A model generated the notes under the pieces. The model did no database searches and was not told the origin of the DNA. It saw only the letters and a list, made by a program, of their open reading frames with translations. Of a DNA stretch of 64,000 nt, positions 35,038 through 62,030 are shown one piece after another. Origin of the DNA: Maritimibacter alkaliphilus HTCC2654 (lineage in GTDB: Bacteria > Pseudomonadota > Alphaproteobacteria > Rhodobacterales > Rhodobacteraceae); assembly GCF_000152805.1 (NCBI RefSeq), contig NZ_CH902578.1, positions 3,645,906 through 3,709,905 on the forward strand, written 5' to 3'. Numbering within the stretch: position 1 is the stretch's first letter; each line of letters opens with the position of its first letter. The translations under genes were made by a program, and so were the position numbers.

Positions 35038-35078
35038 AAAAAAGGGGCCGCCCGCTGCGATGCGGGCGGCCCTTTTTT
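35038..35078. terminator. Bidirectional Rho-independent terminator
   Basis: A perfect 11-bp stem GGGCCGCCCGC (35045-35055) / GCGGGCGGCCC (35062-35072) has A6 on its left (35038-35043) and T6 on its right (35073-35078). It therefore ends both the acyl-CoA synthetase transcript and the convergent lipoprotein transcript. Confidence 0.92.
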
Positions 35079-35728
35079 CAGTCGGTCGCCTGCACGGCGC
35101 CGTCGAGGGTGGCGGATGCGGTGGCGCCATTCAGCGTCACCACCATGGCGTCGAACGCCCGTGCGGTATCCCCTTGCAGCCGGACCGCTTCCGCATCCGG
35201 GCCTTTGAACGTGCCGGTGATCGACCCTTCGGTGCGGATCGTGTCGCCGCTGCTGGTGACCGTGCCGGCGATGTCGGCGACAAGATCGTTGCCGACGAAG
35301 AACCCTCCCGTAATGTCGATATCACCCGTCGCGTCGCTGAAAGTGTCCAGCACGGCCTGATACTGGGCCGGGCTGCCGACGCCGGGGTGGTTCAATGTCA
35401 TCCAGTCCGAGCCGGATGCGTCCCGCTTGCCCTGAATGTCGCTGATCCGCCCGGTCAGGGAACCTGCCGCGAAATCGGCGTCCAGCGTCGTGCGGCCGAC
35501 TAGCATGTGGTCGGGGTCGTCCGGCCTGCCGACCGTCACGATCGATCCGCCTTCGTAGCTCGCGGTTCCTGTCGTGGGCATGGTCGCCGTATCCGCCAAT
35601 TGCCCGACCTCGTCGAAGGACTGATAGACCAGTTCGCCCAGCGTCAGGCCGGGGGTCGTGCCCAGACACCCACTGAGCGCCGATGCACCGATGAGTGCCG
35701 CAACTGTCTGAATTGCATGATGTTTCAT
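35078..35728 (-). CDS. Lipoprotein with transferrin-binding-like beta-barrel domain
   Basis: 216 residues with a lipobox LSGC (Cys-21). The mature part has alternating Gly-rich strands (ASYEGGSIVTVG, RTTLDADFAAGSLTGRISDIQG, ITGTFKGPDAEAVRLQG) as in the small TbpB-type / Slam-substrate lipoproteins. It is probably anchored in the outer membrane. No role is known; the family assignment rests on the pattern of strands, not on catalytic residues. Confidence 0.75.
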   Translation of the reverse strand: MKHHAIQTVAALIGASALSGCLGTTPGLTLGELVYQSFDEVGQLADTATMPTTGTASYEGGSIVTVGRPDDPDHMLVGRTTLDADFAAGSLTGRISDIQGKRDASGSDWMTLNHPGVGSPAQYQAVLDTFSDATGDIDITGGFFVGNDLVADIAGTVTSSGDTIRTEGSITGTFKGPDAEAVRLQGDTARAFDAMVVTLNGATASATLDGAVQATD

Positions 35729-36653: not shown

Positions 36654-37265
36654 TCAGATCAGCCGGTAATCCTTAGCACGCTGAAGGGCTTCTGCCGTGG
36701 TTCTGGCGAATAGCTTGCGCCGCGCCGCCGAGAGGCGCGCCTTGAAGGCGCTCTCGGATATGCCGAGCCGTGCGGCCCCGGCGGCGTAGCGATCCCCGGA
36801 GGCAATGACCAGAAGCGCCTGTTTCTCGGCCTTCGTCAGGTGGTCTGGGGGTTGGGTTTCGTGGTGCAATCGCAGGACACAGCCCGTGACCGCCGACATC
36901 TCTTCTTCGTTGAATTCCCGATCGCCCCGCGCGACGCCTGCGACGGTGCGCGATGTCATCGGCCCGCAGGACACGCAAACGCCGTAGACAAGGCCGAAGC
37001 TCGCGGCCTCGGCCATGATCCCGAACGGGTCGGGCAGGTCGATGTCGCTCCACCGCGTCGCGCCGCTGCGCGAGATGCCCCATGCCACCATCGGGTCGCG
37101 CAGGGCATAGGCGTTGCGGGTGTAATGATCGGTCCAGGCCGGGTTATAGGTCTGGAACATCATGAGGGGGGCGGCGAACCGAATGTGCAGCGCCAGAAAG
37201 TATCCGGCGGGCGCCACGCCCCCCAGTTCGCTCAGCAAATCGTCTATGATCTGATTCCGCCCCAT
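36654..37265 (-). CDS. luxR: LuxR-type quorum-sensing regulator
   Basis: 203 residues from MGRNQIIDDLLSELGG; a GTG at 37298 adds 11. The N-terminal autoinducer-binding domain has the Trp/Tyr/Asp pattern (YNPAWTDHYTRNAYALRDPMVAWG, with GxxSG-like features), and the C-terminal HTH is LTKAEKQALLVIASGD ... LGISESAFKARLSAARRKLFARTTAEAL. The HTH is divergent from the LuxR consensus (KAR in place of xxH). It should bind the signal made by the adjacent synthase. The 271-base gap to the divergent giant gene probably carries its regulatory sites. Confidence 0.92.
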   Translation of the reverse strand: MGRNQIIDDLLSELGGVAPAGYFLALHIRFAAPLMMFQTYNPAWTDHYTRNAYALRDPMVAWGISRSGATRWSDIDLPDPFGIMAEAASFGLVYGVCVSCGPMTSRTVAGVARGDREFNEEEMSAVTGCVLRLHHETQPPDHLTKAEKQALLVIASGDRYAAGAARLGISESAFKARLSAARRKLFARTTAEALQRAKDYRLI

Positions 37266-37536
37266 GACTGAAGTTAGAAACGAGTGAGCGGGACGCACAA
37301 CTCATAATTGATCTTGCTACACAGTTTTGGCGAATTGACCGGGTGTGGACACGCCTAGCGGGAAAAGCATTCCGGCCTTGTGCGAAATGCGAAGATTTGG
37401 GCCGGTCTCGGCCCGCGGGTGAGTGAAGACTCCCATCGAATCGGTAGACGCCGTTATGATTGACGTAACGAAAGGACGTCGATCGTGGGATGATCGTAGG
37501 ACATAGGCGCAGCCCCAAGCGGACGCGGGGCGAGGC

Positions 37537-40500
37537 ATGATCCGGACTGTCGGGAAACTGGTCGTCGTCTTCGCGTTGTGGCTCTTCGTCGTCGCCTTGT
37601 CGCCCGCGACCGCGCAAACCGACGCCGGGCTGGCCGGCGCTCCGATCCGCGCCGATACGTTCCGCACCATCGACAAATACGGGACCATCTGCCCCAAGTG
37701 CAGAGCCGAACAGACCGCGTTCCATGCCGCCGTCGACCGATACGACGCGCAGCGCGCTGAATACGACCGGCTGGCCGAAGAGGTGCGGCAGGCCGCCGAC
37801 CGGTTCGTCCGACAACGGGATGAGGTGAAGCGGCTGGAACAGGCGCTGGCCGATGCCGATGCCTTCTGGGACGAGATGCGGGCGGAGGACGCCTATCTGC
37901 GTGACGACTACGTCCCGACCGAAGAAGCGGCGCGGCGCGCCATCGCAGCCATCGACCCTTATTACGATGCCAAGGATGCGCTGCCCGGCGTGCGGGCCGA
38001 GCTTCAGGCCGCTTTCGACGCGCTGGAGGCCCAACGCCTCGTCACCGTCGAAGCGATGGGCGCGGCATTGGCCGCCGAGCGGGCCATGTTCCGGTGCGAG
38101 ACCCAGTGCGAGATATCCGAACTTGATCTGGACGAGCGCGATCCGCCACCGCCGCCACCCGAAGACCCGGCCCTGATCGACGCGAGCCAGGTGCCGCAGC
38201 CCGAGAATTTCGTGGGCATCGTCGCGGCCTGTGCCGAATGCCTGCCCCTGTCCGAGCGCGTGAACCAGATCCGTTCGCACCGGCGCAGCTTCGCGGTCGA
38301 CGCCTCGACCACCTATGACAGCATGGTCAACAACCAGCGCACGCTGGAGCGTGTGACACGGGAACTCGCGGCGCTGGATGCGCAGGAGCGCACGCTCTAT
38401 CGCAACATGGCCGAATGGTTCAAAGGGGCGGAGCCGCCCGAGGGCTCGGACCCCATCGACTTCATCCTCGACGAAGTGGACCAGCGCGAAACGGCCGACA
38501 TGCTGCGACAGATCGCGGCGCGGCGGGCCCAGTTGCAGGGTGACATGGCAGGGCTGGCCCAGACGATCCAGACCCAGTTTCGCGGTCTTCTGGAGGCGAT
38601 CGCGAATTACCACGCGCATACGGCGCTGCTCGAAGCGGCGCAAAAGGCGTTGGAGGACTGCGAAAAGAACTGCCCGCCGCCGCCGCCCGACCCGGCGGAC
38701 GACCCGTTCACCGACCCGAATTACCCGATGCAGGACAATATCGACCCGCTCGTCGCGAAGTGCTGGGAGTGTCAGCCGCTTGCGGATGCGCTGATAAAGT
38801 CGCTGGTGGAGCGGCGAAGCGTGGCCGGGGATATTCAGTCGGTGGTCTGGCTCATCAAGTCCCGACGCGCCGAGATCGAACGCAAGGACGCGCGGCTGGA
38901 TGAGCTTCGGGCCGAAGAGCGCCAGATGGGCGAGGCGCTCAGGATCGGGCTGGACGCGAATGCGGATGTCTCACGCGTGTTGTCCGAGCTTTGGGATATC
39001 GAGAACGAACAGACGCAGCTTCTGCAAGACGTGCTCGCCGCCGAACAGGAAATACCACAGTACGAAGCCGACCTCGCGGTGCTCATGGCCCGGCACGAGG
39101 CGCTTTCGCGGTTGATCGAGGAACAGCAGGCCGCGCTCGACATCTGCGAATACAACAAGTGTCAGCCTGAGAACGGCGAGCCGCGCATCAGCCTGACACC
39201 GCCCCTGACCGACCCGGCCTATCCGATCCCGCAGCCCTTCACCTATGTGGCGACCGACTGCCTGTCCTGTCAGCCCATCGTCGACCAGATCAACGCCAAG
39301 CTCTTGGACCGCTACGTGCTGGCGGGGCGCATACAGGCGACGGCGGCGGAACTGACCCGCCTTGGCGAAACCCTGACCGCGAAGCAGGCCGAACTGGAAG
39401 CCGCGGGCCGTGAACTTGGCGAACGCGGTATGGAATATCACGGCGCCGAGGGCGACGCGGCACGGGCCGCCGCGCTCGTCGCTCTGGATGCGGTCATCGA
39501 CCGGGAACGGGCGCTTCAGGACGAGATCACGGGGCTCGAAGACCTGATCCGGGGCAAGCGGCAGGTGCTCGCGCGAATGCAGACGCGTTACAGCGAGATC
39601 GAGGGTGAAATCCTGACCCTGTCGAACCGTCTGGCCGATTGCGAACGCAACTGCGCCGACCCGGACGAACCGGAAGAGGATATTTTCCTTGCGGGTCAGG
39701 ACCCCTTCGTCACGACGGATTGCGAGCCCTGCCTCGTCCTCGCCTCGCGCGTCAACGATGCGGTCGGTTCGCTGATCGGGGCGCAGCGCGACCTCGCGGC
39801 GGCGAAAAAGGCCGAGGCCGATCTGGTCGAGCAGGCCAAGGCGCGGCGCGACCGGCTGGCCGAAATCGACGAGGCCCTGAACGGCCTGTCCGAGATTTGG
39901 CTCACCACCTACGAGAAGCCGGGGCGCGAGGCGGAGTTCCGCGAAGCCGACGACGCGATGACCGCGCTCGACCGCGAAAAATCGGACCTCGAGACCGAAC
40001 AGGGGGGCGAGGACGAGGCGGCGCAGGCGGCGCGTGATGCGGTCGATGCGGCGCAAAGGCGCGTGGACGATCTGCATGTCCTCATCACGAACCTCAAGGC
40101 CGAACTGGCCGAATGCGAAAAGCAGTGCCAGCCCCCGGACGAAGACATCGCCTTGGACGAGTCGCCCTTCGTGGCGACCGACTGCCCGCCGTGTCAGACC
40201 CTTGCCAGTATGCTCAACGACGTGATCGGCAGCCAGATCTCGCTCAAGCGGCAGGTGGCCGAGGGCGAGGCCGAGCTTGAACGGCTCAGGGGGCAGACGG
40301 CCACGCTGGAAAGCGCCGTGGGCGACGCGCGTGAGGCGCTCGACGCGATCAACGACGCCCTGATCGACCCGGCCAATGCGGATCAGGCCCGTGATCTTGC
40401 CTTCGACAGTCTCGACGCGGAAGGCGATGTCATGGATGCACGCAACGCGGTGCGCGACAACGCCTTCGCCATCGAGGCGCTGGTCCAGAAGATCGCGGGG

Positions 40501-42702
40501 CTGAAGGCGCAGATCGCGATGTACGAGGCGCAGGAACCGGGGCTTCGCGCGCAACTGGCCGAGTGTGAGCAACAGTGCCAGCCGCCCGAAGAGGGGACCG
40601 AGACGGCCTTGCCCGAGACACCGTTCGTCAACACGGATTGCGAAAAGTGCCTTGTCCTCGCCTCGATGGTGAACGACGCGGTCGGGTCGCGCATCGGGGC
40701 CGAGCGGCGGCTGGAGGACGCGCGCGCGGCGCGCGCGGCGGAAGCTGCGGCATCGGAGGAGCGTCAGGCCAAGATCGCCGAGCTTCGCGCCAAGCTGCAC
40801 GACAACCGTCAGGCACGCCTGAACGCGTCCGACATGGAGGAATATGAACCGCTCTTCGACGAGGGCGAGGCGCTGGGCGACGAACTGCTCCCGCTGTTGT
40901 TCGAGGAAGAGGATACACCCGGCAAGTTGGAACAGATGGACGCCGACATCGCCGCGCTCGAGGCCGAGATCGCCCGGCTCGTTCAGCAGGAGGCCGACCT
41001 CAAGGCGCAATTGGCGGAATGTGAGCGGACCTGCAACGACCCTGACGAAACGGCCATGGGGGATGAAGCGCCCAATCCCTTCGTCACCACCGACTGCGAA
41101 CGGTGCCTGACGCTGGCCTCGATGGTGAACGACGCCGTCGGCACGCATATCGGGGCCGAGCGCGCGGCGCAGGAAATCCGCGATCGCATGGCCGGGATTC
41201 GCGACGAGATCGCCGAGAAAGAAGCCGTGCGCGACGGGGATGGCGATGAAGCGGACAAGCTTTTCATCGACGACGAAATCTCGATCCTCGAAACCGATCT
41301 GGAATTCGCCGGTTTCGATCTGGAGAAGGCCGAAGACCGCGTCGCCGATCTGGCGCGGCAGGTCGCGGCGCTGAAGGCGCAACTGGCGGAATGTGAGCAA
41401 AATTGCGATCCGGGCGCGACCCCGGAGGAAACCGCCACTGCGCCTGAACCCGATCCGCGGTTCGCGCGCACCGACTGCGAGCCCTGTGCACAGATCGTGG
41501 CGACCCTGAACGACGTGATCGGGTCGCGCATCGGGGCAGAAGAACGTCTGGAGCGCGCGCAATCGGAATACGACCGGATCAAGGCCGCCGACGACCGTGT
41601 TCAGGCGGCCATCGACGCGGCGGAGGAGGCGTTCACGCAGGCCGCTGTCGAAAAGGCGCGACTTGAAAGGTCGGGTCAGGATGCCTCGGCCCAGCAGGCC
41701 GCGGTGGATGCGAACCTAGACCGGGCGGCGGACCTGTCGTTCGAGGCGGATGACCTGTTCATGGCGTTGCAGGAGGCCGAGGATGCGTTGAACGAGGCCA
41801 AGGCCGCGCTTGAACGCCTTCAGGCCGACGAAGCCCGTCTGCGCGCGGCACTGGCCGAATGCGAACGTCAATGTGGCGGCAGCGAAACCGCTGGCATGGT
41901 GCCCGACGTGCTGCTCGACAAATTGCAGGATGCCGGATGCCGCGCCGGAGGGTCTTGCACCTTTACGCTCGGCGTCACCAACCAGTCGGACGGCCCCTAC
42001 CGCGGGCCCCTGTTCCTGTCTGAAACCGGGCGTGTCGATGCGGGCGCCAACGGGGCCCTGTTCGACGGCTGGCATTGTTCGCCTGCGGCCGGGGCCAATT
42101 CCATCTGCCTGCACGAGGGCGAAATCGGTGCGGGCGAAAAGGTCGGTCTGTCGATCCCGGTGCGCTTGCCCGGCTACGTGGCGCCGGGGTCCGAAAACTG
42201 CATCCGGGTCGAATTCGCCGTCGATCCCCGCAAACTTCTGCAACTCATTCAGGTCGGCCTCGCCGCCCGTGGGCTGAACCCCGGTGTCGCCGACGGCCTG
42301 ATGGGGCCGCGCACCCGCGCCGCGATGGTCGCGCTGGGCGAGGCGTCGGGGCAGGAGGTCGATCCCGGCGATCTGGAGGCGGTCTATCGCCTGATGTTTG
42401 GCACGAACCCATCCCCGGCGAGCGCGACGGAACAGTCCGCCTGCATCGAGATGGAGGTCGAGAACCCGCCGCGCACGGCCACACCGCGCCCGCCTGCCCA
42501 GAACGTCACCTCGTCGACCCCCGGCCAGTCGACGCCGCAGGGCACACCACAGGGCACGCCGCGACCGCAGGTCCAGATCGGGATCGGGCTGGGCTTCGAA
42601 CAGCCGCGCGCGCCCACCGAGCAGGAACTCGAGACGGGCGGGGCCCGCCCCGGCGGGCTGTCCATCGGCGGAATCGGTCTGGGCCTGTCCTTCGGAGACT
42701 AG
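37537..42702 (+). CDS. Giant exported nine-repeat cysteine-paired coiled-coil protein (unknown family)
   Basis: 1721 residues, and I recognise no family. A signal peptide (about 1-27, ending ATAQ) is followed by nine repeats. Each opens with CxxC and closes with CxxxC: C52/C187, C232/C375, C409/C537, C575/C702, C729/C860, C883/C1010, C1035/C1162, C1187/C1286 and C1314/C1442 (first Cys of each pair). Repeat 3 closes CxxxxC. Openers in repeats 5-9 read DCxxCxxLASxxNDxxGSxIG; closers read LAECExxC. The span from opener to closer is 124-128 in most, 96 in repeat 8 and 132-140 in repeats 1-2. Between them is strongly helical, Ala/Glu/Arg-rich sequence. Linkers are acidic and Pro-rich. After 1450 come a cysteine-containing beta domain (TFTLGVTNQSDGPYRGPL), a short peptidoglycan-binding-like segment (LIQVGLAARGLNPGVADGLM), a Pro/Thr-rich stretch and a Gly-rich C-terminus (IGGIGLGLSFGD). 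Likely a disulfide-stapled periplasmic or surface structural protein. Confidence 0.9.
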   Translation: MIRTVGKLVVVFALWLFVVALSPATAQTDAGLAGAPIRADTFRTIDKYGTICPKCRAEQTAFHAAVDRYDAQRAEYDRLAEEVRQAADRFVRQRDEVKRLEQALADADAFWDEMRAEDAYLRDDYVPTEEAARRAIAAIDPYYDAKDALPGVRAELQAAFDALEAQRLVTVEAMGAALAAERAMFRCETQCEISELDLDERDPPPPPPEDPALIDASQVPQPENFVGIVAACAECLPLSERVNQIRSHRRSFAVDASTTYDSMVNNQRTLERVTRELAALDAQERTLYRNMAEWFKGAEPPEGSDPIDFILDEVDQRETADMLRQIAARRAQLQGDMAGLAQTIQTQFRGLLEAIANYHAHTALLEAAQKALEDCEKNCPPPPPDPADDPFTDPNYPMQDNIDPLVAKCWECQPLADALIKSLVERRSVAGDIQSVVWLIKSRRAEIERKDARLDELRAEERQMGEALRIGLDANADVSRVLSELWDIENEQTQLLQDVLAAEQEIPQYEADLAVLMARHEALSRLIEEQQAALDICEYNKCQPENGEPRISLTPPLTDPAYPIPQPFTYVATDCLSCQPIVDQINAKLLDRYVLAGRIQATAAELTRLGETLTAKQAELEAAGRELGERGMEYHGAEGDAARAAALVALDAVIDRERALQDEITGLEDLIRGKRQVLARMQTRYSEIEGEILTLSNRLADCERNCADPDEPEEDIFLAGQDPFVTTDCEPCLVLASRVNDAVGSLIGAQRDLAAAKKAEADLVEQAKARRDRLAEIDEALNGLSEIWLTTYEKPGREAEFREADDAMTALDREKSDLETEQGGEDEAAQAARDAVDAAQRRVDDLHVLITNLKAELAECEKQCQPPDEDIALDESPFVATDCPPCQTLASMLNDVIGSQISLKRQVAEGEAELERLRGQTATLESAVGDAREALDAINDALIDPANADQARDLAFDSLDAEGDVMDARNAVRDNAFAIEALVQKIAGLKAQIAMYEAQEPGLRAQLAECEQQCQPPEEGTETALPETPFVNTDCEKCLVLASMVNDAVGSRIGAERRLEDARAARAAEAAASEERQAKIAELRAKLHDNRQARLNASDMEEYEPLFDEGEALGDELLPLLFEEEDTPGKLEQMDADIAALEAEIARLVQQEADLKAQLAECERTCNDPDETAMGDEAPNPFVTTDCERCLTLASMVNDAVGTHIGAERAAQEIRDRMAGIRDEIAEKEAVRDGDGDEADKLFIDDEISILETDLEFAGFDLEKAEDRVADLARQVAALKAQLAECEQNCDPGATPEETATAPEPDPRFARTDCEPCAQIVATLNDVIGSRIGAEERLERAQSEYDRIKAADDRVQAAIDAAEEAFTQAAVEKARLERSGQDASAQQAAVDANLDRAADLSFEADDLFMALQEAEDALNEAKAALERLQADEARLRAALAECERQCGGSETAGMVPDVLLDKLQDAGCRAGGSCTFTLGVTNQSDGPYRGPLFLSETGRVDAGANGALFDGWHCSPAAGANSICLHEGEIGAGEKVGLSIPVRLPGYVAPGSENCIRVEFAVDPRKLLQLIQVGLAARGLNPGVADGLMGPRTRAAMVALGEASGQEVDPGDLEAVYRLMFGTNPSPASATEQSACIEMEVENPPRTATPRPPAQNVTSSTPGQSTPQGTPQGTPRPQVQIGIGLGFEQPRAPTEQELETGGARPGGLSIGGIGLGLSFGD

Positions 42703-42750: not shown

Positions 42751-42825
42751 TGGTGCCGCAGGGGAGGATTGAACTCCCGACCTCACCCTTACCAAGGGTG
42801 CGCTCTACCACTGAGCTACTGCGGC
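42751..42825 (-). tRNA. tRNA-Thr (GGT)
   Basis: The minus strand folds as a full cloverleaf with acceptor GCCGCAG/CTGCGGC, D-arm AGCTC-AGTGGTA-GAGC, anticodon stem CACCC/GGGTG with loop TTGGTAA (anticodon GGT), T-loop GTTCAATC and encoded CCA at 42751-42753. It lies between the giant gene and the murA block. Confidence 0.96.
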
Positions 42826-51915: not shown

Positions 51916-51990
51916 GCCCGGGTAGCTCAGGGGTAGAGCAGTGGATTGAAAATCCTCGTGTCGGTGGTTCGATTCCGCCCCCGGGCACCA
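51916..51990 (+). tRNA. tRNA-Phe (GAA)
   Basis: Acceptor GCCCGGG/CCCGGGC, D-arm GCTC-AGGGGTA-GAGC, anticodon loop TTGAAAA with GAA, T-loop GTTCGATTC and encoded CCA. One U-U mismatch lies in the anticodon stem. Its 3' end is followed at once by a lower-GC island, the usual place for tyrosine-integrase insertion. Confidence 0.97.
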
Positions 51991-52054
51991 TTTTTACTCA
52001 GCATAAACAGTTATGTAGCGCGGTTAGCCGCTGGTGACCGGACTCTTTGCTGGG

Positions 52055-52094
52055 GTTGGGTGCCGTATGGGTGTCAATTGACTTCGCACCCAAC
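52055..52094. terminator. Inverted repeat after the large STAND gene
   Basis: GTTGGGTGC (52055-52063) and GCACCCAAC (52086-52094) pair perfectly around a 22-base loop, 11 bases beyond the stop of the large minus-strand gene. It could be a factor-dependent terminator or a recombinase arm site. No T tract. Confidence 0.35.
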
Positions 52095-52105
52095 TAACGC
52101 CGAAG

Positions 52106-55100
52106 CTACCTCGGCAAAGCGGCAAGGATGCCTTCTATTTCGCTTTGGTTTCCAATCCCAAGTGTCGGAAGGACGGCCATCAGAATTTTGACAACCCTAT
52201 TTTCGTTTGAGGCCTCATCGTCTTTCATCGCATCCAAGATACTGACCTCGTGAAGCGCAGGCCGGCTTAGCAGAAAGCGTTGCCGTTCCCAGATGAATGC
52301 CCACCTTTCCATGAGCCAGGGTCTCACTGCTTCAGCTACCAAGCTGTATTTCCCGGTCTGTTGAGCAATTTGAAGAGACTTGAACGCCACCTCGAACACT
52401 TGTCGCGGGGAGCCACTCGGTACCTCAGACGTTCCTTGGGTGCAGGCGAGTAATAGGGCAGCAAAGTCTGTGTAGAAATCTTCGACCGGCCCTTCGCTTT
52501 GCAGGCGATCAAACAATTGCGGTCGAATAGAGAGGCCGCTCGCACCGTTCAGCTCAGTGAGCACTGCGGCAACAGACTCACAATCACCCTTGAAATGGCT
52601 GACTGCGACAAACGTCAGAACAAACTGCTCAGTCAGGTCCCTTAAATCGGTTTGTTGCTCTTTGTTAGGCGTCGGAAAGTTGCCATAAGTCACGTTCTTT
52701 ATATCCAACCCACCGGTCGAACCGCCGCTAGCTTTTGCAAACGCAAAACACGCTATTGTTTCTCGCAAGGCGGTTACAAAAAGCTTTGCATCAGACCGAG
52801 ACAGGGCTTTGTGCATCTTGGCCGAACCGAGCAGAAGCTGCCCCTCAAGAACAGGACCATTCGGTAGGAAGCGATCCAAATTTTCAGTAATTCCAGCATC
52901 AACAACCAAATGGTTCTCGACTGTCGCCAGCATGTACCATGCCATATCAATGGGGGTGATGTTACGCTCGCCAATCTCGGAATGAGGTTCAGGATTACTT
53001 ACGCAGCCGGGATAAATTTTGGTCTCTTCGCCGTCTTCAAGAAGACGCTTCTCACCGGTCGCTTCTTGATCAAGCCAGAGTAGAACGTGTCGAACCACTG
53101 CATGGCAATGGGCTGTACGCAGTGTTTCATCGGGCTTGAATTGGTTTAGCTCACCCAGAACTGCAACGAAGTCCTGCAAGCAAGTAACCCTATCGCCACC
53201 GTGCCAACTTGCGAGCGCAGCGTCAGCCAACAGCCCAACCCTCATGGCAGCCATATCGGGCACATTGGATTTCTCGGCAGCATCGCTACCATAGAGGTAA
53301 TACCGGCGGGCCAACTCGAAATCGCCTTGCTTTTCGGCGCTGATCGCTGCGTCCCGTCCCAAAAACGCCTTCTCGACCTCGCTCAGGGGTGCGTCGCCTT
53401 CTATCAATTCCTTGGAAAGTTCAAGGCTCCCCTTGTGGTCATCTGAACGGTAGAGAACTTTTGCTTTTGCACGTACAAGTTCAGAGTTCGTCTGGCCAAA
53501 TTTCGAAAGACCATCGTCGAGAACCGCGAGCGCTCCCTCTTTGTCGCTTCCGTACTCGTCTAGAATGATGGCCTGATACTTCCGGCAACAAACAGCAAGG
53601 TCAGTTTCGCCCCACCTAGTGGCCAGATCTTCCAACCGTGCAAAGGTCCTACTATGAGCCACTGGATCGATGGTTTCGCGCTCGTGCTCACGCAGCCAGG
53701 CACCTGAGACAAGCATGTCCACGTCAAAATCGTCGTGGCTGAAGGGCGCAAGTAGTCTTGCGCGAAACTCGGGTGAAGCGTTGTCAAGAAAACCGAAAAC
53801 AGCCCCCAAATCTTCGATTTTGCCAAGTTGCCTTGCTTGGTTCATGAACATGAAGCCAATTGCTGTGACACCTTCCTCCTCGATTTTGCGTGTCCCTTCT
53901 AAAACATCGGGCGGAAGTAGCTCACCTTCTAGCAGGTTATCCAGTTCACGGACGACCTCGGTGAAGTTCACTCCCAGTCCAGCTTTGGACGTCTGAAGAA
54001 GCAGCTTAGAATAGATGAGCAAGTTCATAGACGCGCGCATCTCGACGTGCTCCACGTTCGAGGCTTCGCTGGCGAAACAGCGCAACGCCTCCTGAATCTT
54101 TGTAGGCGACTCGTTATCTTGGTTAATGAGGAGAAGTTGAGCGCCTCTGAACATATGGCTGAGCGCCGTGTTCGCTGGGTATGCTGTCTTGTCAGTCCTG
54201 AACAGAGTGAACATCGAGAGGTGAGGCGCGAGCATCTCAAGTTCCGAAAAATCAGAACCAATTACGGCAAGACAAAGCCTCAGTAAGACCTCTTCATTTT
54301 CGCTCGCCCAAGCAGCTAGGAGAGCCGAGTTCATATCGAGTACATCCAGAGACCGGCTTTTCGTCAATGACTCGGCGATTGCGCTTTGCAGTCGCTTCTT
54401 GTCGTCGGCGCTTAGTGTTTTGGCTGCGAAACCCGATAGCAATGGCGAAAGACTGAACCGATTGCCTTCTTGCTGATCCACCCACGAGCCGATCAGCGTC
54501 TCTAGGACAATACCCGCATCAGAAATCTCAGGCTCTACTTTTCCAAGATCGACGGCTAGCTCTCTGGAGAAGCCACCTGCCTTAAGTGAAAGGCGCTCAA
54601 GCAGCTGACGGCTCGGCTGAGGTAGATCATTCAGCAACCGTTCGCGAGTTCGCTTTTTGACATCCTCAACGGCTGGTGAACCTTGAAGCAAGGCATCCAG
54701 AGTTTGAAACTCTGAAGGGTTCCAGCCCGAGGCAGTCATACTCTGTATGAAGGCCATCGCAAGCTGAGGATGCCCACCGCCAGACACCAAGTGGGCATAC
54801 TTTGCCCAATTGACGTCGGTCACTCCACATTTAGCAAGGATCTCTTGAATATCTTCTTCCGAGAATTCGCCCAAGGTATGCGCAATGCCAACTGGCAGGT
54901 TGTTGTGAAATAGGAGTTCGTTGCTTGGTAAGTCAGATGAGTTCACAACTAGAAGTGCGTCTGAGCGCCGCGACGCGAAAATTAGGTAAGACAGTCCGTC
55001 GAGCACATCCGGGTCCGTAACCCAAGCGACATCATCAACGATCAAGCCGTTAAGCTCAAGGTCCCTCAAAGAGTCTGCTATTTGGAAAAAGATCTGTGCA

Positions 55101-56149
55101 ACTTGATCACGAGACTTGCCTCTCAAATTAATGCTGGCCCATTCACCTCTATTGCTGCGCGCAAGGATGCGGGATGCGACCGTCTTGCCCATACCGGCAG
55201 CACCGGAAATCCAGCAAACTCCAAAGGCTTCTAAACTTTCTTGAAGCTGCCCAAGGATCTCGGTTCTATTTGCAAGCGCCTTTGGTAGAGGGGTTTCCGA
55301 CACTGGGCTAGGTCGGATAAGCTGTGCGCTTGTGAGGTTGGCCTCTACTGGAACGGAAGCAGACAGGGCTCTGCTCAAAAGTTGATTCTGCACCTCAAAT
55401 TGGGCCCTATTGAGGGTCACTTGAGTGGCCGACTCTAAGAGTTGCTCTATACCGTTTCGGTCGACGCAGCGCTCATCCCGATTGGGGTTTGTAGAAAGCT
55501 TCAGAACAGTTAATATTATGCTGGCTGTGCATGCTTGAGCTTGTGAATGTACGCCACCTCTATCCAACAGAAGCTTCGAAACTCTCGAATTTAACTGCCG
55601 CGCCAGAAAACGAGACTCAGTAGCACCGCAATCAAAATGAATTCTTCTCAGGAAATTTTCTCGAAGATCACTGTCGTCAAGACTTTCAACATAGTCCTTT
55701 GTCTTCTTAGATAGCTTGGATTTGTTAAGTACGCTGCGAAGCTCGGTCAAATCTCCCGATCTTGCCAAGTTCCGCCAAGCGTCCAGAGTAGGCACATCGC
55801 CTACTCGACCCTCAAGTTTCTTTTCTTTTCCAATTGCTGAGGTCGTAAGGTGACGCAGTGTGACTTTCAGGTTTGGATTGCTTTGCTTCAACTCTACAAA
55901 GCTATCAATGCTGGCAACGATGTCGTCCGAGTTTATTGTAACGCGCCCCGCGGTTTCCTTCACTTGAACGGCTTGCAGCGCGTCTTTTGCCGCGACGGCG
56001 TAGTCCTCGGCCACTTCTAGAAAAAGAAACTCATCATCGTTCAGTTCGGTCCAAGCAAGGGCCGACTGGTAGACCTGATAAACATAACCTCGAAGGGAAT
56101 CGATGGCTTCTCTAGCCGTATCCCCGATGGGAGTTTGTACCGGAGGCAT
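52106..56149 (-). CDS. STAND NTPase with N-terminal Cap4/DUF4297-like nuclease (Avs-like defence protein)
   Basis: 1347 residues. The N-terminus (GYVYQVYQSALAWTELND) fits the DUF4297/Cap4 endonuclease pattern: acidic E45, E48 and D49 (FLEVAEDY) followed by Q62 and K64 (VQVKET), a PD-(D/E)xK site. A STAND NTPase follows, with Walker A GAAGMGKT (316-323) and Walker B GLIVDDV (368-374). The C-terminal 700 residues are helical repeats resembling TPRs, the expected sensor. This three-part order is that of Avs antiphage sensors, which bind a phage protein and then cut DNA. It is not assigned to a named Avs type. GC is much lower than in the core, consistent with transfer. It lies alone on its strand, 115 bases after tRNA-Phe. 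Confidence 0.78.
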   Translation of the reverse strand: MPPVQTPIGDTAREAIDSLRGYVYQVYQSALAWTELNDDEFLFLEVAEDYAVAAKDALQAVQVKETAGRVTINSDDIVASIDSFVELKQSNPNLKVTLRHLTTSAIGKEKKLEGRVGDVPTLDAWRNLARSGDLTELRSVLNKSKLSKKTKDYVESLDDSDLRENFLRRIHFDCGATESRFLARQLNSRVSKLLLDRGGVHSQAQACTASIILTVLKLSTNPNRDERCVDRNGIEQLLESATQVTLNRAQFEVQNQLLSRALSASVPVEANLTSAQLIRPSPVSETPLPKALANRTEILGQLQESLEAFGVCWISGAAGMGKTVASRILARSNRGEWASINLRGKSRDQVAQIFFQIADSLRDLELNGLIVDDVAWVTDPDVLDGLSYLIFASRRSDALLVVNSSDLPSNELLFHNNLPVGIAHTLGEFSEEDIQEILAKCGVTDVNWAKYAHLVSGGGHPQLAMAFIQSMTASGWNPSEFQTLDALLQGSPAVEDVKKRTRERLLNDLPQPSRQLLERLSLKAGGFSRELAVDLGKVEPEISDAGIVLETLIGSWVDQQEGNRFSLSPLLSGFAAKTLSADDKKRLQSAIAESLTKSRSLDVLDMNSALLAAWASENEEVLLRLCLAVIGSDFSELEMLAPHLSMFTLFRTDKTAYPANTALSHMFRGAQLLLINQDNESPTKIQEALRCFASEASNVEHVEMRASMNLLIYSKLLLQTSKAGLGVNFTEVVRELDNLLEGELLPPDVLEGTRKIEEEGVTAIGFMFMNQARQLGKIEDLGAVFGFLDNASPEFRARLLAPFSHDDFDVDMLVSGAWLREHERETIDPVAHSRTFARLEDLATRWGETDLAVCCRKYQAIILDEYGSDKEGALAVLDDGLSKFGQTNSELVRAKAKVLYRSDDHKGSLELSKELIEGDAPLSEVEKAFLGRDAAISAEKQGDFELARRYYLYGSDAAEKSNVPDMAAMRVGLLADAALASWHGGDRVTCLQDFVAVLGELNQFKPDETLRTAHCHAVVRHVLLWLDQEATGEKRLLEDGEETKIYPGCVSNPEPHSEIGERNITPIDMAWYMLATVENHLVVDAGITENLDRFLPNGPVLEGQLLLGSAKMHKALSRSDAKLFVTALRETIACFAFAKASGGSTGGLDIKNVTYGNFPTPNKEQQTDLRDLTEQFVLTFVAVSHFKGDCESVAAVLTELNGASGLSIRPQLFDRLQSEGPVEDFYTDFAALLLACTQGTSEVPSGSPRQVFEVAFKSLQIAQQTGKYSLVAEAVRPWLMERWAFIWERQRFLLSRPALHEVSILDAMKDDEASNENRVVKILMAVLPTLGIGNQSEIEGILAALPR

Positions 56150-56232
56150 TTTCTGCTCAACTCAAAGGATTTATGCCCGAGTGTCGCCTCCCATTGGGGC
56201 GAGTGCAAGTGCTACGGTTTCGGTTTGCGCAA

Positions 56233-56433
56233 CTAGTTCCTCAACAAGGCCAAGGCCTCCTTATGGCCCGTTGACCCTTTCACCCACTGCCACGGCGTGC
56301 GCGGTTTGCGTGCCTTCGCCAGTTCCGGGTTGGCCTTGGCGTCGCTGGCGGCTGCGCGCAGGCGTTCGCGTGCCTCACGCGGGTCGATCTTGAGTTCTTC
56401 GCATAGGGTTTTCAGCGTGATGATGTCGGACAT
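56233..56433 (-). CDS. Small helical island protein, HTH-like
   Basis: 66 residues. LKTLCEELKIDPREARERLRAAA looks like a two-helix DNA-contacting unit, followed by a basic linker (KARKPRTPWQWVKGST). AGGAGA precedes the ATG. Similar tiny proteins are frequent in alphaproteobacterial genomes; no proven role. The next 293 bases (56434-56726) contain nothing I can support. Confidence 0.6.
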   Translation of the reverse strand: MSDIITLKTLCEELKIDPREARERLRAAASDAKANPELAKARKPRTPWQWVKGSTGHKEALALLRN

Positions 56434-56726
56434 GTCGATCTCCTAGGTTTCTGATGCAGATCGATAAGACGAGGTCGAGGGGTCTGTCAGGGACAACCCC
56501 AACCAAGCTCCGGCATATGCAGCGATAGGCGCGCGTGGCCGCGTTGTATTGAGCCAGCAGGACGCTTGACCGGCATTCGCGACGTATCCAGCCCGTCGCC
56601 ATACTGAGTCTGACGCTGGCTTCTGTGCGCCGCGCAGTCGTGTTCTTCACTGGGAAATACCCTGACCAAAGGTGGTGCCCGATCTTATTGCGCTGTTGCG
56701 ACTGCAATCAGTGAAAGGAGACCGCA

Positions 56727-56957
56727 ATGGTCATTTGTGCAACTTGGAGCTTCAACGGGCAGGAGAAGGTCATCCTTGGCAATTGGCATCGCCTGTGGTG
56801 CCTGTTGTTCGGCCCATTCTACTATGCCTTCAAAGGTATGTGGTGGTGGGCGCTCTTGTCGCTGATCACGGCCAACGGCCTATGGGTCGGCTTCCCCCTG
56901 TTCAACCGCGCCATCGTGCTGCGCCATTACCATCGCAAGTGCTGGGTTCAAAACTGA
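56727..56957 (+). CDS. Small membrane protein
   Basis: 76 residues with one or two membrane helices (WCLLFGPFYYAFKGMWWWALLSLITANGLWVGF). The aromatic stretch around LFGPFYY resembles the small DUF2628-like inner-membrane proteins. A good AAAGGAG lies 7 bases before the ATG. The role is unknown; a toxin-like membrane peptide is possible but unsupported. Confidence 0.6.
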   Translation: MVICATWSFNGQEKVILGNWHRLWCLLFGPFYYAFKGMWWWALLSLITANGLWVGFPLFNRAIVLRHYHRKCWVQN

Positions 56958-57263
56958 TGTCTAGGAAGCTCCAGCCAATGAGTAAACCCACCCACCTGGC
57001 ACCCAATTCAGCGATTGAAGATTGCCAGCATCGCGGGCCACTTGAAAAGATTCACATAATTGGTTCCACGTCGCTCCCAACAGCCTGATCAATAGTCCGC
57101 GTGTCGCTCTCGGGCGCTTCCGGGCACACCAAAGGAGCCGAAGACAGCAGGTGACCACAGGAGGATGGGGGGAGGCGTTTTTTAAACGGCGTTCGCTCTT
57201 CGGGCAGACAAGGCGTTATGCATACTGCCGAGATTTTCGGCCCCTAGCCGATTTCAAGATCGT

Positions 57264-57358
57264 CAAGATCGCCAAGGGCGTCATGCATGATCGTGGCGAT
57301 CTTGGGGGCAAAGTGCACCAAAATCATCGATGGCGATGTTGGCGTTCTTGGCGCACTT
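57264..57358. repeat. Paired inverted repeats next to the helicase gene (candidate replication origin)
   Basis: CAAGATCGCCA (57264-57274) and TGGCGATCTTG (57294-57304) match perfectly; the gap holds the palindrome TCATGCATGA. A second pair, AAGTGCACCAA (57311-57321) and TTGGCGCACTT (57348-57358), differs at one position. They lie within the gene-free 56958-57374 stretch, immediately downstream of the helicase stop. No coding frame is supported there. P4-like replicons keep cis-acting repeats near their replication genes, so an origin is a reasonable guess. Confidence 0.4.
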
Positions 57359-57374
57359 CACATCCTAGCTGTGG

Positions 57375-58358
57375 TCATTCTTCGTCAGGCAAAGATAGGA
57401 ACCAGCCTTTCCCCTTCTTTTTTGATCTGACGCCTAGAGCGCGCCTTGCGCGTTCCAATGTCTTGGGGGCGATGTCGCGTGCCGCAGCCTCTTTCTCCAC
57501 CTTGGCTGACGGTTCCGGCCCGCTCTTGAGAAACACGCGCAGAAACTGGGTTGCTTCGTCCAGCGCCGACATTCGCGGAGCGCCTTCGAAAGAGATCAAG
57601 TCGTCAATCGTGATGTCTGACGGCCCCAGCCAATTGAGGGATGCCCTGCCGCAATCTTCTCCGACGATTTCATAACTCTGCGTTTGCCCGCGAACGGCAA
57701 TGTTGTGCTTGATGTGCACAATCAGCTTGGTCGAACTGTCGTTGGGGTGTTCGCACACCAGAAACGCCGATCTCGCCGCGCCGATCACATCCATGGAACC
57801 ACCCCCCTGATATATGGCCTTGCTGTGCTTGGCCTTCGTCAGGTGCCGAATGATCACCACGGCCGTTTCACCAGCCTCCGCTATGTCCTTTAGGAAAGAC
57901 AAAAGCTGCCGAATGACGTTTGGCTTGTAGATGTCCTGCCCCGCCGGAATGTAGGCGTACAAGGGGTCGAGGATGAGAAGGTCCGGTGGCTTGCGCTTGA
58001 CCTCGCGCATGAGCGCCTTGAGACCCTCATCGTCAAGCGAGAGGAAGTCGCCCTGCACCCGGATGCGCGTTGGATCACCTCCCATCGCATCGATGCGCGG
58101 CCTAATCGTGTAGGCCGCGTCATCCTCGGCGCTGAGGTATAGCACGCGACCACGCCCGACCTTTTGTCCGTCTGGAAGTTCGCCGCCGATGCTGACCTGA
58201 ACCGCGAGTTGCATGGCGAGGAAGGATTTGCCCACGCCGGGGTCCCCCTCCATGATGGTGATCATGCTGAACGGGATGAACGGCTCCCAGAGCCAGTCCA
58301 CCTCCTTTGGGTCAATGGTGTCCAGATCGATGAAGAGTTCTTTTTTCTTAGAAGTCAT
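57375..58358 (-). CDS. RepA-like RecA-fold helicase/ATPase
   Basis: 327 residues. Walker A GDPGVGKS lies at 38-45 and Walker B LLILDPLYAYIP near D131. YLSAEDD and VVIIRHLTKAK are typical of the AAA_25/RepA (RSF1010) group. A C-terminal winged helix region (AAARDIAPKTLERARRALGV) may bind DNA. It overlaps the upstream primase by 4 bases (ATGA), a coupled helicase-primase pair. It would replicate the element when excised. Confidence 0.8.
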   Translation of the reverse strand: MTSKKKELFIDLDTIDPKEVDWLWEPFIPFSMITIMEGDPGVGKSFLAMQLAVQVSIGGELPDGQKVGRGRVLYLSAEDDAAYTIRPRIDAMGGDPTRIRVQGDFLSLDDEGLKALMREVKRKPPDLLILDPLYAYIPAGQDIYKPNVIRQLLSFLKDIAEAGETAVVIIRHLTKAKHSKAIYQGGGSMDVIGAARSAFLVCEHPNDSSTKLIVHIKHNIAVRGQTQSYEIVGEDCGRASLNWLGPSDITIDDLISFEGAPRMSALDEATQFLRVFLKSGPEPSAKVEKEAAARDIAPKTLERARRALGVRSKKKGKGWFLSLPDEE

Positions 58359-59314
58359 TCGGCGTCCTCCACCTTCGCGATGATCGTGAAAATCTCGCGC
58401 TCTAGGCGCTTCACGTTGTCGCCGTGCTTCTCACGAAAATATGGACTGGTCCAAATGACGCTGGCAATTTCGTCCAGCGATGCACCGGCCTCGAAGAGGC
58501 CAGTCACCATCGCGAAAACTCGACCAGACCGATCAGAAGCACGAACTGAGTTGTGCCTGATCAACGAGCTTGCCGACGCATCCAGTTTTCGACGGTATCG
58601 TCTCCAAACACCCATTCTGTCATGGGCATACGGGTTTAGCGCGCGCTCCTCGACTTTGGCTATTTTCTTGATTTTTTGACCACGAAGAAGTCTTGGCCGC
58701 GCCTCTATCGGCGTGAGGTCGCATTTCAAAAGCGGAATGAATGGCTTGGCATATTTGGGCTTGTGGTTGAAAGAACCGGGCAACCTAAGAAGTTTGTTGG
58801 CCGCACTACCGCCGCTGTCTCCCCCGTGCCGCTTCGTGAGGGCCATCGAAAACGCTGCGGCCTCATCTGGTGTGTGGGGGTTATCCCAGAACCATAGGGC
58901 CTGCGTGTGCCCCGGCGATGTCTGCCAAACGACTGAGGGCGCTGGCCTGAATGATAAGGGATCAGCAGCATCAACGTCACACCACCCCCACCAACACGTT
59001 TGAGACACGCTGCTGAGTAGCCGGTTTTCCTCGGTGAAGGTGTTGGGACCAAAAAATTGATCCCACTTGTGCCGGTCGTATTTTCGCAAGATGCCGATAA
59101 CGCTCATGTCATCGGCGAGTTGAACGAACTCTTGAACCATTCTGGACGACCCCTTCTTGCGAAAGCAAAGAGAGCCAAAGGTCTCAGTGTGATCCTGTAC
59201 CTGTGGTCCCCAGATCGCGAAAAGGAACTCATCCTGATCCTTGATGGTCGAGCGGTCCGGCCACCCGTCTTGCCATAGCGTGGGCGTCACATAGTCATCT
59301 ATGGGAGTTGTCAT
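58355..59314 (-). CDS. RepB-like archaeo-eukaryotic-type primase
   Basis: 319 residues. The catalytic DxD is D113/D115 (WCDVDAAD), the sxH motif SPGH at 133-136 is followed by TQALWFWD, and RLPGSFNHKPKY matches the third motif of the AEP superfamily. It would make primers for the element. It precedes the helicase with a 4-base overlap. No C-terminal helicase domain is fused, unlike P4 alpha. Confidence 0.78.
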   Translation of the reverse strand: MTTPIDDYVTPTLWQDGWPDRSTIKDQDEFLFAIWGPQVQDHTETFGSLCFRKKGSSRMVQEFVQLADDMSVIGILRKYDRHKWDQFFGPNTFTEENRLLSSVSQTCWWGWCDVDAADPLSFRPAPSVVWQTSPGHTQALWFWDNPHTPDEAAAFSMALTKRHGGDSGGSAANKLLRLPGSFNHKPKYAKPFIPLLKCDLTPIEARPRLLRGQKIKKIAKVEERALNPYAHDRMGVWRRYRRKLDASASSLIRHNSVRASDRSGRVFAMVTGLFEAGASLDEIASVIWTSPYFREKHGDNVKRLEREIFTIIAKVEDAE

Positions 59315-59425
59315 ATTCTTCTCTTTCGTTGCGCGCAGATCTATGGGGCGCGCAAAATGCGCGTTAGGTTCGTCTGCGTTGTGTTCGGGGGTGGAGGGGC
59401 GACTACCGCCCCACCGTCGCTGGTG

Positions 59426-59632
59426 TCAGCTTCTGCAAATGAGGATGGGAGGATGCACGCCTGTAGTGAGCAAATACCACCTGTCGACTGCGTCAGCGTC
59501 CCATGTTGACGGGCCGATCCGAGGGGGGAATATGCCTTTAGCCTCAAGGCGCTTCAGGTGCTCTGGGCTATTCTTGATGCCCAAAACTCTCAGGCAACGT
59601 GGGCAATACGTTCGCGTGTAGGTAGGTTCCAT
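59426..59632 (-). CDS. AlpA-like small DNA-binding protein, zinc-type variant
   Basis: 68 residues. CPRCLRVLGIKNSPEHLKRLEAKGIFPPRIG ... WDADAVDRWY resembles the MerR/AlpA-type winged HTH, preceded by a CxxC that could bind zinc. It follows the AlpA gene by 6 bases on the same strand. Such proteins act as excisionase or element regulator. Frames on the other strand here are shadows. Confidence 0.65.
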   Translation of the reverse strand: MEPTYTRTYCPRCLRVLGIKNSPEHLKRLEAKGIFPPRIGPSTWDADAVDRWYLLTTGVHPPILICRS

Positions 59633-59638
59633 CTGGGC

Positions 59639-59872
59639 TTACCTCGCATCCGCATAAGTCCACGAGGCGCGTTCAGCCTTGCGAGCTTCAATCCAAGACA
59701 AAACCTCTTCGCGATCCCAGCATACGCAAGCACCCGAAAGGCGAATGCGCACGGGAAAACGGCCAGCTTGTTCAAGTCGGATCAGTGTGGAATTCGACTG
59801 CCAAATTCCTAGTTCTTTCAGATCATCTCTCGACAAGAGGATCTTGTTGGTGCTTGTGACGGACTCTGCCAT
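59639..59872 (-). CDS. AlpA-family regulator/excisionase
   Basis: 77 residues from MAESVTSTNKILLSRDDL; GGAG lies just before this ATG, while an upstream frame extension (to 59911) has none. LLSRDDLKELGIWQSNSTLIRLEQAGRFP and the Trp-containing wing CVCWDREEVLSWIEARK match AlpA, the regulator of P4-like integrase operons. It reads away from the integrase, toward the replication genes. Confidence 0.82.
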   Translation of the reverse strand: MAESVTSTNKILLSRDDLKELGIWQSNSTLIRLEQAGRFPVRIRLSGACVCWDREEVLSWIEARKAERASWTYADAR

Positions 59873-59977
59873 TGGTGGCTCCTTCTCAGTTGGGGGAAGG
59901 AGAATGCGCATTCTCTAGGTGACGTCTGCGAATGACATAGCAGCGGCGCAGGTCCCGAAATAGATAGCGAAAACCAG

Positions 59978-60571
59978 TTAGGTCATCGGTTTATTTTTGG
60001 CGCGTCCCGAGCGGAAAATATCGTGCTTCCCGGTCTGCCTGACGGCAGCAAGGCGCGCGCGCTTTATGCCAGCGCCTGAGACGTTCTGAAACTTTTCTCT
60101 GGCCACCTTTTCGGTTTCGTTGACACTCAGCCGCGCTTGTTCAGTCTTGGAAATCAAATCGACGAACCACTCATGGCATTTTTGCTCAGCGGCAGATGTG
60201 AAACTTGGCTGAGAGTCATCCAGATCAAGCAAGCAGCTTTGGAGTTGTTTAACGTGGACTCTGCATAGCACAGGCTCGTTGACGCCAGCATGGAACATGG
60301 TGTCTTCATGCAGACGGATCGAAAAGTATTCGTGATCGACATCGACGGGCTGAAGTTGGCCAGACACCTCGTGGTCAGACGTGTGCCAATGCGCGGCGAC
60401 ATCGCCAGACCTGAGAATGTTGCGTAAGCGTGTGAGCACGACCTTGTGATTTGGGGCATCCTTCTCAAAAACGCTTTTGTGCCAAGCGTCTCCCAGCGAA
60501 GCCTTTCCCACGATTTCAAAAGCTTCACGGAGGCCGACGAATGGGCTCTTGTCGAAATCGTTTACTGGCAA
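59978..60571 (-). CDS. Hypothetical island protein downstream of integrase
   Basis: 197 residues from TTG, 4 bases after the integrase stop, with GAGGG upstream, so it is co-transcribed with the integrase. The C-terminal AVRQTGKHDIFRSGRAKNKP is basic. I recognise no family; similar unnamed proteins are found beside integrases in alphaproteobacteria. Confidence 0.6.
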   Translation of the reverse strand: MPVNDFDKSPFVGLREAFEIVGKASLGDAWHKSVFEKDAPNHKVVLTRLRNILRSGDVAAHWHTSDHEVSGQLQPVDVDHEYFSIRLHEDTMFHAGVNEPVLCRVHVKQLQSCLLDLDDSQPSFTSAAEQKCHEWFVDLISKTEQARLSVNETEKVAREKFQNVSGAGIKRARLAAVRQTGKHDIFRSGRAKNKPMT

Positions 60572-60575
60572 GTCG

Positions 60576-61736: not shown

Positions 61737-62030
61737 GCAGATATCGTAAGACACCCAGAATCCGCGTGTCAGGGTATGGTTTGGGGCAGGTTGAGCGAAA
61801 TCCTACAAGCTGGAACGTTTTGGGTTTGTTGCGTTGCACAGCAAGAGGAAGAAAAATGTTTCAAAAGAGCCAAGCGCGAAGTTGCGCTATTTCTTGAAGG
61901 TTGGCGCAATCAGTGTGAGAAAAAGAAGGCAGCCCCTCTCTCGGTTGTGCCCTTTTCTGTGTCTCTACCTTGATCTGGTTCAGCGTCATATGAGGCAGCG
62001 TGTGACCTATTGGTAGATCGAGAAAAACTA

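Follow-up and report, generated by a model that had tools for sequence, protein, structure and literature searches.

A giant, apparently exported protein of Maritimibacter alkaliphilus with nine cysteine-bounded units predicted to fold as long helical hairpins

Introduction

The stapling of helices by cysteines is best known from small mitochondrial proteins, among them the CHCH (twin CX9C) and small Tim (twin CX3C) proteins, in which a helical hairpin is closed by paired cysteines. Long antiparallel helical coils are contained in Smc and in colicin E9, and the receptor-binding hairpin of colicins E3 and E9 is a long two-helix hairpin. In periplasmic adaptor proteins, lipoyl/barrel domains flank one hairpin. 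CHCHD4 is described as a cysteine-paired helical hairpin (PMC12114033), EmrA as having a periplasmic alpha-helical hairpin of 127 A (PMC4158417), Omp-alpha of Thermotoga as a 50-nm coiled-coil rod across the periplasm (PMC5082667) and SlpA of Deinococcus as a link between outer membrane and peptidoglycan (PMC9388160).

We analysed a stretch of 64,000 nucleotides of Maritimibacter alkaliphilus HTCC2654 (the window), in which an open reading frame at 37537-42702 on the forward strand encodes a protein of 1721 aa with 42 cysteines. Its repeated units resemble the CHCH and small Tim hairpins in their paired cysteines, but the arms of those proteins are much shorter than the 60-69 residues predicted here, where CX2C is combined with CX3C or CX4C in a bacterial protein and in tandem; twin CX9C or twin CX3C occurred in none of the 34 units compared, and no Pfam match of these types was obtained at E<=1. 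The predicted helices and heptad register are nevertheless consistent with interhelix disulfides of the CHCH/small Tim type. Omp-alpha and SlpA are likewise coiled-coil envelope proteins, but they are continuous rods, SlpA with homotrimeric coils, SLH domains and a beta-barrel, whereas intrachain hairpins and a PG_binding_1 tail are predicted here and no SLH or barrel Pfam match was found in the window protein at E<=1. EmrA shares the long alpha-helical hairpin, but carries a single one with other domains and no cysteine staples as against nine hairpins here, and no lipoyl/barrel adaptor-type Pfam match was found in the window protein at E<=1. The hairpin of colicins E3 and E9 is of similar size, but there is one of it, in a bacteriocin, and no common domains were seen. 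Similarity to SMC/Rad50 is of the coiled-coil profile kind, and the Smc coil 5xg2 appears among the Foldseek matches; in the window protein, however, Pfam at E<=1 matched no ATPase head of the SMC_N or AAA kind, an export signal is apparent, and the cysteines are at the base of the coil, not in a hook at the tip. Finally, the exported alphaproteobacterial proteins L104-L106 share the C-terminal module, in which PG_binding_1 is flanked on either side by a Cys-bearing beta-like segment (by eye), but differ in the N-terminal part, in their His-rich repeats and in the absence of hairpins. The parts of the design (cysteine-stapled hairpins, envelope coiled coils and PG_binding_1 anchors) are known already and their combination is new to us; literature searches within open-licence PMC turned up no title or abstract opening that describes such a protein.

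Results

Organization of the protein

The product begins with an apparent export signal, judged by eye to be of Sec type and to end in ATA-Q, followed by nine CxxC...CxxxC units and a tail with six cysteines. The features are as follows.

37537-42702, + strand: whole gene, 1721 aa, 42 Cys, 60.5% identity to the full-length relative L002 (L002 and L005 are one contig)
37537-37617, + strand: N-terminal export signal, about residues 1-27, ending ATA-Q (by eye; comparable AxA-Q or RA-Q ends in L085 and L002)
37690-38109, + strand: hairpin unit 1, residues 52-191, from the cysteine motif
38230-38673, + strand: hairpin unit 2, residues 232-379; Cys2-Cys3 gap of 139 residues in all four genomes compared
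38761-39162, + strand: hairpin unit 3, residues 409-542, with a CxxxxC end, from the cysteine motif
39259-39654, + strand: hairpin unit 4, residues 575-706, from the cysteine motif
39721-40128, + strand: hairpin unit 5, residues 729-864, of a type found three times in L085
40183-40578, + strand: hairpin unit 6, residues 883-1014; two helices predicted by AlphaFold2 with one non-helical residue between
40639-41034, + strand: hairpin unit 7, residues 1035-1166; two helices and a 4-residue turn predicted by AlphaFold2
41095-41406, + strand: short hairpin unit 8, residues 1187-1290, 28 residues (four heptads) below units 6 and 7
41476-41874, + strand: hairpin unit 9, residues 1314-1446; two helices and a 5-residue turn predicted by AlphaFold2 (pLDDT ~90)
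41905-42210, + strand: first part of the DUF11-like beta domain, about residues 1457-1558, with Cys 1468, 1474, 1514, 1524 and 1555; homologous to tails with DUF11 matches; strands predicted by AlphaFold2 at low confidence
42223-42384, + strand: PG_binding_1-like helices, about residues 1563-1616, flanked by two similar Cys-bearing beta-like segments
42436-42471, + strand: second Cys-bearing beta-like segment, with Cys 1636 (by eye)
42472-42699, + strand: Pro/Thr/Gly-rich C-terminal tail, dissimilar between the two lineages; pLDDT <50 over residues 343-422 of the model of unit 9 plus tail

The signal peptide (by eye) and the nine units, with CxxxxC closing the third, are all present as described in the first-pass annotation. 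The Cys2-to-Cys3 offsets of units 1-9 are 132, 140, 125, 124, 128, 124, 124, 96 and 125, so that the spacing of 124-128 it had given for most units holds for six of nine, the short unit 8 and the longer units 1-2 having gone unmentioned. Against the nine units observed, 5000 composition shuffles yielded at most 2 and on average 0.05.

Across five genomes we counted 34 units: nine in the window protein, nine in G001, six in G321, eight in G425 and two in G587. All 34 contain exactly four cysteines, arranged as CX2C ... CX3C or CX4C; the units were detected by this motif itself, and since the linkers are 18-50 residues long there is no space for a motif-less unit between them. The six cysteines outside the units of the window protein all lie in the tail and are kept in the five giant-protein tails, and the totals follow 4n+6: 42 in the window protein, 30 in G321 (truncated at the contig end) and 38 in G425, whereas the 44 of G001 include two more in the leader, upstream of the apparent cleavage site (by eye), and the 16 of the G587 fragment are accounted for by its two complete units, a cut unit contributing two, and the further six. 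Such totals are as expected if every cysteine of the mature protein is paired. Neither the six tail cysteines nor the DUF11-like domain that bears them had been recorded in the first-pass annotation.

The linkers of the window protein (18-40 residues, 204 in all) have net charges of -3 to -9 and 22% Pro, in line with their earlier description as acidic and Pro-rich; those of the distant relatives in family f117 are mostly neutral, the later ones Gly/Gln-rich, so acidity is not a defining feature of the linkers.

Predicted fold and coiled-coil register

The AlphaFold2 model of units 6-7 (numbered from residue 874; mean pLDDT 88.5) contains helices 11-70/72-140 and 163-222/227-293, with cysteines at 10, 13, 137, 141 and at 162, 165, 289, 293, which are the outer ends of each helix pair. 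In the model of unit 9 (numbered from residue 1300; pLDDT ~90) the helices span 16-79/85-146 and the cysteines are at 15, 18, 143 and 147. Each of the three units modelled (6, 7 and 9) has two helices, 60-69 residues long. The alignments used were shallow (9 rows for units 6-7 and 3 rows for unit 9 plus tail, the poorly registered pair alignments A2, A3 and A5 being left out of folding); the structure prediction called for in the first-pass annotation did return helix pairs, but pTM was 0.48 and 0.37 and the relative arrangement of the units is therefore not fixed by the models. Antiparallel packing and closeness of the cysteines were read from the helix limits, not from coordinates, and on that reading nothing in the models placed the cysteines of one unit far apart. 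In unit 6, with one residue between the helices, the model could represent a kinked helix instead of a hairpin.

Analysis of the 64 arms of four genomes revealed a hydrophobic periodicity of 3.5 residues with a power of 1.26 (1.24 for the arms of the window protein alone) against 0.197 (sd 0.023) after shuffling, a value reached by none of 500 shuffles. The hydrophobic fraction was 0.62 at heptad position a, 0.60 at d and at most 0.20 at the others; the register was chosen to maximise a/d, and shuffled arms thus reach 0.49/0.47 at a/d and 0.15-0.20 elsewhere. Positions b, c, f and g were below the shuffled hydrophobicity and e slightly above it. The arms therefore have mainly one seam, which fits a two-stranded coil. 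When the register was taken from non-Cys residues, Cys2 fell at a and Cys1 at e in 28 of 32 units each, Cys3 at d in 24 and Cys4 at a in 18, the 32 units being homologous and hence not 32 independent observations. In antiparallel coils position a faces d, so that Cys2-Cys3 is the expected pair.

The models and the register agree with the helical hairpin per unit that had been proposed at first sight, and a hairpin with clustered cysteines is in our judgement highly probable. As a prediction the hairpin fold is well supported; disulfides, location and function are inferences. If each unit is a hairpin, the chain comes in and goes out at one and the same base, so that the molecule would advance through its linkers and take the form of a comb rather than of a filament of rods joined end to end, which corrects the filament first suggested.

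The C-terminal tail

Against PG_binding_1 (PF01471) the window protein gave E 0.03-0.06 (14-14.9 bits), below the Pfam gathering cut-off of 23 bits. The same domain was matched in six of six tail sequences at E<=0.1 (best E 1e-5), and modules found through the tail alignment carry it at E 2e-15. Among 11 genomes of the order to which f117 belongs, the tail alignment matched proteins in both genomes of family f174 (E 4e-15 to 2e-11) and none in six f162 genomes; of the three f174 proteins, the two that were scanned contained PG_binding_1 at 57.1 and 49.8 bits, both above cut-off, and in all three it has a Cys-bearing beta-like segment on each side, the two segments resembling each other (by eye). 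The peptidoglycan-binding-like segment of the first-pass annotation, below cut-off in the window protein itself, is probably a PG_binding_1-type module near the C-terminus, one that is firm only through relatives.

DUF11 (PF01345; cut-off 24.6 bits) was matched above cut-off in L104 (31.5 bits) and below it in L106 (22.7) and L046 (21.2), and was unmatched in the window protein in Pfam at E<=1. The AlphaFold2 confidence for the beta part of the tail was low (37-71 per block). In the f117 genome of relative L006, L087 1045-1986 encodes a protein of 313 aa with an apparent signal and most of the tail module, without hairpins. Since this protein and the f174 proteins carry it, we read the tail as a separate module common to other exported alphaproteobacterial proteins, and as a predicted anchor.

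L104 3367-6357, L105 836-4660 and L106 4503-8264 show a DUF11/PG_binding_1 module and then long arrays of the S-x-x-H ... S-S-W-H type (by eye), a second odd repeat design that is predicted to be wall-anchored.

Searches of families and structures

Searches of Pfam, NCBIfam and PADLOC with the whole protein returned similarity of the coiled-coil type (SMC, Rad50, LmuB, JetC; PADLOC LmuB E 6.6e-13), the NCBIfam coiled-coil profiles matching the repeat region at E 2e-3 to 2e-15, all far below their curated cut-offs. This similarity was rejected as composition-like, no head domain being matched. No curated Pfam or NCBIfam family covers the repeats above cut-off, so the earlier statement that they belong to no recognised family stands, with no confident hit to a characterised one.

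The PDB sequence search gave no matches at E<=1, and Foldseek against the PDB none at E<=1e-3 with either model. The top Foldseek matches of unit 9 plus tail were colicins, Ig-like domains and a few coiled coils: colicin E3 came first (E 0.0018; whole-query TM <=0.27 for colicins), colicin E9 (7nsu) aligned over 140 columns at 4.5 A and the Smc coil (5xg2) over 150 columns at 5.5 A, both weak, as were a fibrillar-adhesin domain (9ifr, E 0.009) and EmrA (4tko, E 0.023). With the two-unit model the highest-ranking matches were to axonemal doublet microtubules (E 0.02, rmsd ~41 A) and are not meaningful.

Distribution of the gene

When 84,980 species, each represented by a single genome, were scanned with six exact 8-residue peptides, a search of low sensitivity, two relatives were found, in Maritimibacter sp. 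EAC76 (L005, 61%; it fits G001:C2) and in a fragment from an alphaproteobacterial MAG (L006, corresponding to G587:C205, with the same coordinates and frame length). Tail searches located the gene in two of eight genomes of the genus, the other six giving no match, and in all three genomes of the distant family f117; its absence from six of eight indicates that the genus can live without it. With the repeat profile, genuine matches among 198 family genomes were confined to the own genome, which was also the sole match at E<=1e-7 among 398 phylum genomes, a sample presumably without f117. Among 385 class genomes, a match over most of the tail was obtained in the own genome and two f117 genomes only.

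The repeat profile also matched 19 other family genomes (E 1e-5 to 1e-3), but these matches were set aside, as none spans the CxxC columns, although several reach CxxxC, and none of the 19 frames holding them (one seen in part) contains a CxxC...CxxxC unit. Tail matches in 19 other family and 37 other class genomes, mostly of the PG_binding_1 part alone, were not counted as giant relatives, nor was L046, whose match is limited to the DUF11-like part. Plasmids searched with the whole protein and phages searched with unit 9 plus tail gave no match. In the samples searched, which cover part of known diversity, the protein family is rare.

Evolution of the repeats

Ranked by alignment score, units 1-4, unit 5 and the last unit correspond by position between Maritimibacter and f117, at 28-50% identity: 55 of 56 best-partner comparisons agree, and only unit 4 of G425 against the window protein departs. 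Unit 4 is the weakest pair, and by percent identity alone some positional pairs are not the best. Units 2, 3 and 5 are best conserved between the lineages (43-50%), and no single counterpart of Maritimibacter units 6-8 was found in f117. Units 5-7 of G425 are mutually 98-99% identical at the protein level (L085 7811-12739), and this triplet looks like a recent duplication or gene conversion. So in both lineages the extra units appear to have arisen after the unit-5 type.

At none of the six shared positions does the Cys2-Cys3 length differ by more than 4 residues among the four genomes, and the extra units measure 122-123 except unit 8, which measures 95 in both Maritimibacter genomes. Alignment A1 places a 14-residue gap of this shortening in arm 1 and the remainder at the tip and in arm 2, and alignment A8 places the gaps around the tip. 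Counted from the base, non-Cys identity was 44% and 53% in the first two ten-residue blocks, 32-33% at 50-69 and 41% at 70-79 (32 cells only). The sequence thus diverges while the length of the hairpins is retained, a behaviour fitting a spacer.

Gene neighbourhood

The gene is flanked in the window by luxR (36654-37298, - strand) and tRNA-Thr (42751-42825, - strand), followed by murA. The adjoining luxR is part of a divergent luxR-luxI pair that also stands beside the gene in G001, where no murA match was found within the 25 kb examined. The luxR-murA interval without the gene comprises 529, 497 and 555 bases in G005, G006 and G007, holding the tRNA together with what looks by eye like a small frame, and 1431 bases in G003, with the tRNA; in G002 and G004 no murA match was found within 14 kb examined. 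As the luxR/tRNA-Thr junction occupied by the gene lacks it in G003, G005, G006 and G007, horizontal gain is plausible; loss in the other species is as possible. In all three f117 genomes the gene precedes an ABC operon read from its sequences as choline/betaine-type, and stretches of 8.5, 18 and 5.5 kb gave no luxR/luxI match at E<=1. The two lineages have no neighbour in common in the stretches compared, so that context does not reveal function. Quorum-sensing control was not adopted, since luxR occurs in eight of eight genus genomes and the giant gene in two of eight, with no good lux-box palindrome (best 16-mer 75% self-complementary).

Other loci were recorded in the same region. Beside luxI, 35078-35728 (- strand) encodes a small protein with a weak match to a transferrin-binding-protein-B-like barrel (E 2.7e-4, below cut-off) and no match over half its length in syntenic stretches of seven other genus genomes. 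In G002 (L123) luxR still adjoins the AMP-binding gene and no luxI match over half length was found within 14 kb; this species may have lost the luxI synthase. A 1347-aa frame at 52106-56149 (- strand) matches a Cap4/LmuA-type nuclease at its N-terminus (below cut-off in Pfam, E 2e-4; E 1.6e-16 for LmuA in PADLOC) and, weakly, nSTAND3 (E 0.004); it probably encodes an anti-phage protein of the STAND type. Directly after tRNA-Phe (51916-51990) the G+C content falls from 0.66 to 0.52-0.56 (51916-64000), a sign that a genomic island may have been inserted at this tRNA gene.

Discussion

The cysteine pattern, its conservation and the homology of the tail were observed directly, and on these, together with the predicted helices, we base the following explanation. 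The protein would leave the cytoplasm through the Sec route and become oxidised in the periplasm, the apparent export signal and the paired cysteines pointing to an oxidising compartment. Each of the nine units would then zip into a two-stranded antiparallel coiled coil of ~9-10 nm, in which Cys2 (at a) bonds Cys3 (at d) of the other arm and Cys1 bonds Cys4, so that two disulfides staple the open end. With the bases strung on linkers of 18-40 residues, the hairpins would project like the teeth of a comb that is held to peptidoglycan by the DUF11-like/PG_binding_1 tail, and the teeth may act in the periplasm as rigid spacers or parts of a scaffold, with a length that is retained and a number that tandem duplication alters. 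We regard this whole explanation, a peptidoglycan-tethered periplasmic spacer or scaffold comb of doubly stapled hairpins, as the most likely of those considered, yet evenly poised between right and wrong; the differences between lineages in linker chemistry, tail end and gene neighbours, and the location of Cys4 at a in only 18 of 32 units, count against it, as do the shallow alignments behind the models, the failure of Foldseek to reach E 1e-3, the below-cut-off PG_binding_1 score of the window protein and the six genus genomes without a match.

The comb might instead cross the outer membrane, its hairpins presenting faces for attachment or cell-cell contact, perhaps under luxI-luxR. DUF11-like domains are typical of surface proteins, the tail model has its weak match to a fibrillar-adhesin domain (9ifr) and the lux pair is adjacent in both Maritimibacter genomes with the gene; a surface location is nonetheless unlikely, as neither Pfam nor NCBIfam matched an outer-membrane anchor or secretion domain in the protein, and the part given to lux meets the distribution of luxR, the poor palindromes and the lux-free stretches of f117 reported above. 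Less likely again is near-neutral growth of repeats on a wall-binding protein, with function residing in units 2, 3 and 5 or in the tail and the extra units being filler. The better conservation of those three units, the variation of the extra ones in number and kind and the recent look of the G425 copies would suit it, but the cysteines are kept in every unit, extra ones included, and the extra units other than unit 8 are of nearly constant length. Least probable of all is a metal site (zinc or similar) or redox centre formed by the four cysteines gathered at each base, which would make the protein a multivalent store of metal or electrons. CxxC is indeed frequent as a motif of metal and redox sites, but the apparent export signal leads to an oxidising compartment, the six tail cysteines are an even number kept in all five giant-protein tails, no CxxCH haem motif is present in the window protein (by eye), the inner cysteines lie mostly at core positions of the coil, and the retention of length while the tips diverge is not something that a metal site at the base would require.

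If the periplasmic comb is correct, the stapled hairpin would be a simple and stable building block of defined length, and bacteria would use helix stapling of the mitochondrial type on a much larger scale, in repeated modules tied to the wall. The relatives with at least six, eight and nine hairpins would then constitute a natural series built on elements of fixed length, to be set against the dimensions or stiffness of the periplasm. We tentatively suggest that the protein may represent a new element of the envelope, an anchored stapled comb in which the number of teeth, varied by duplication, would set a mechanical or spacing property of the wall.
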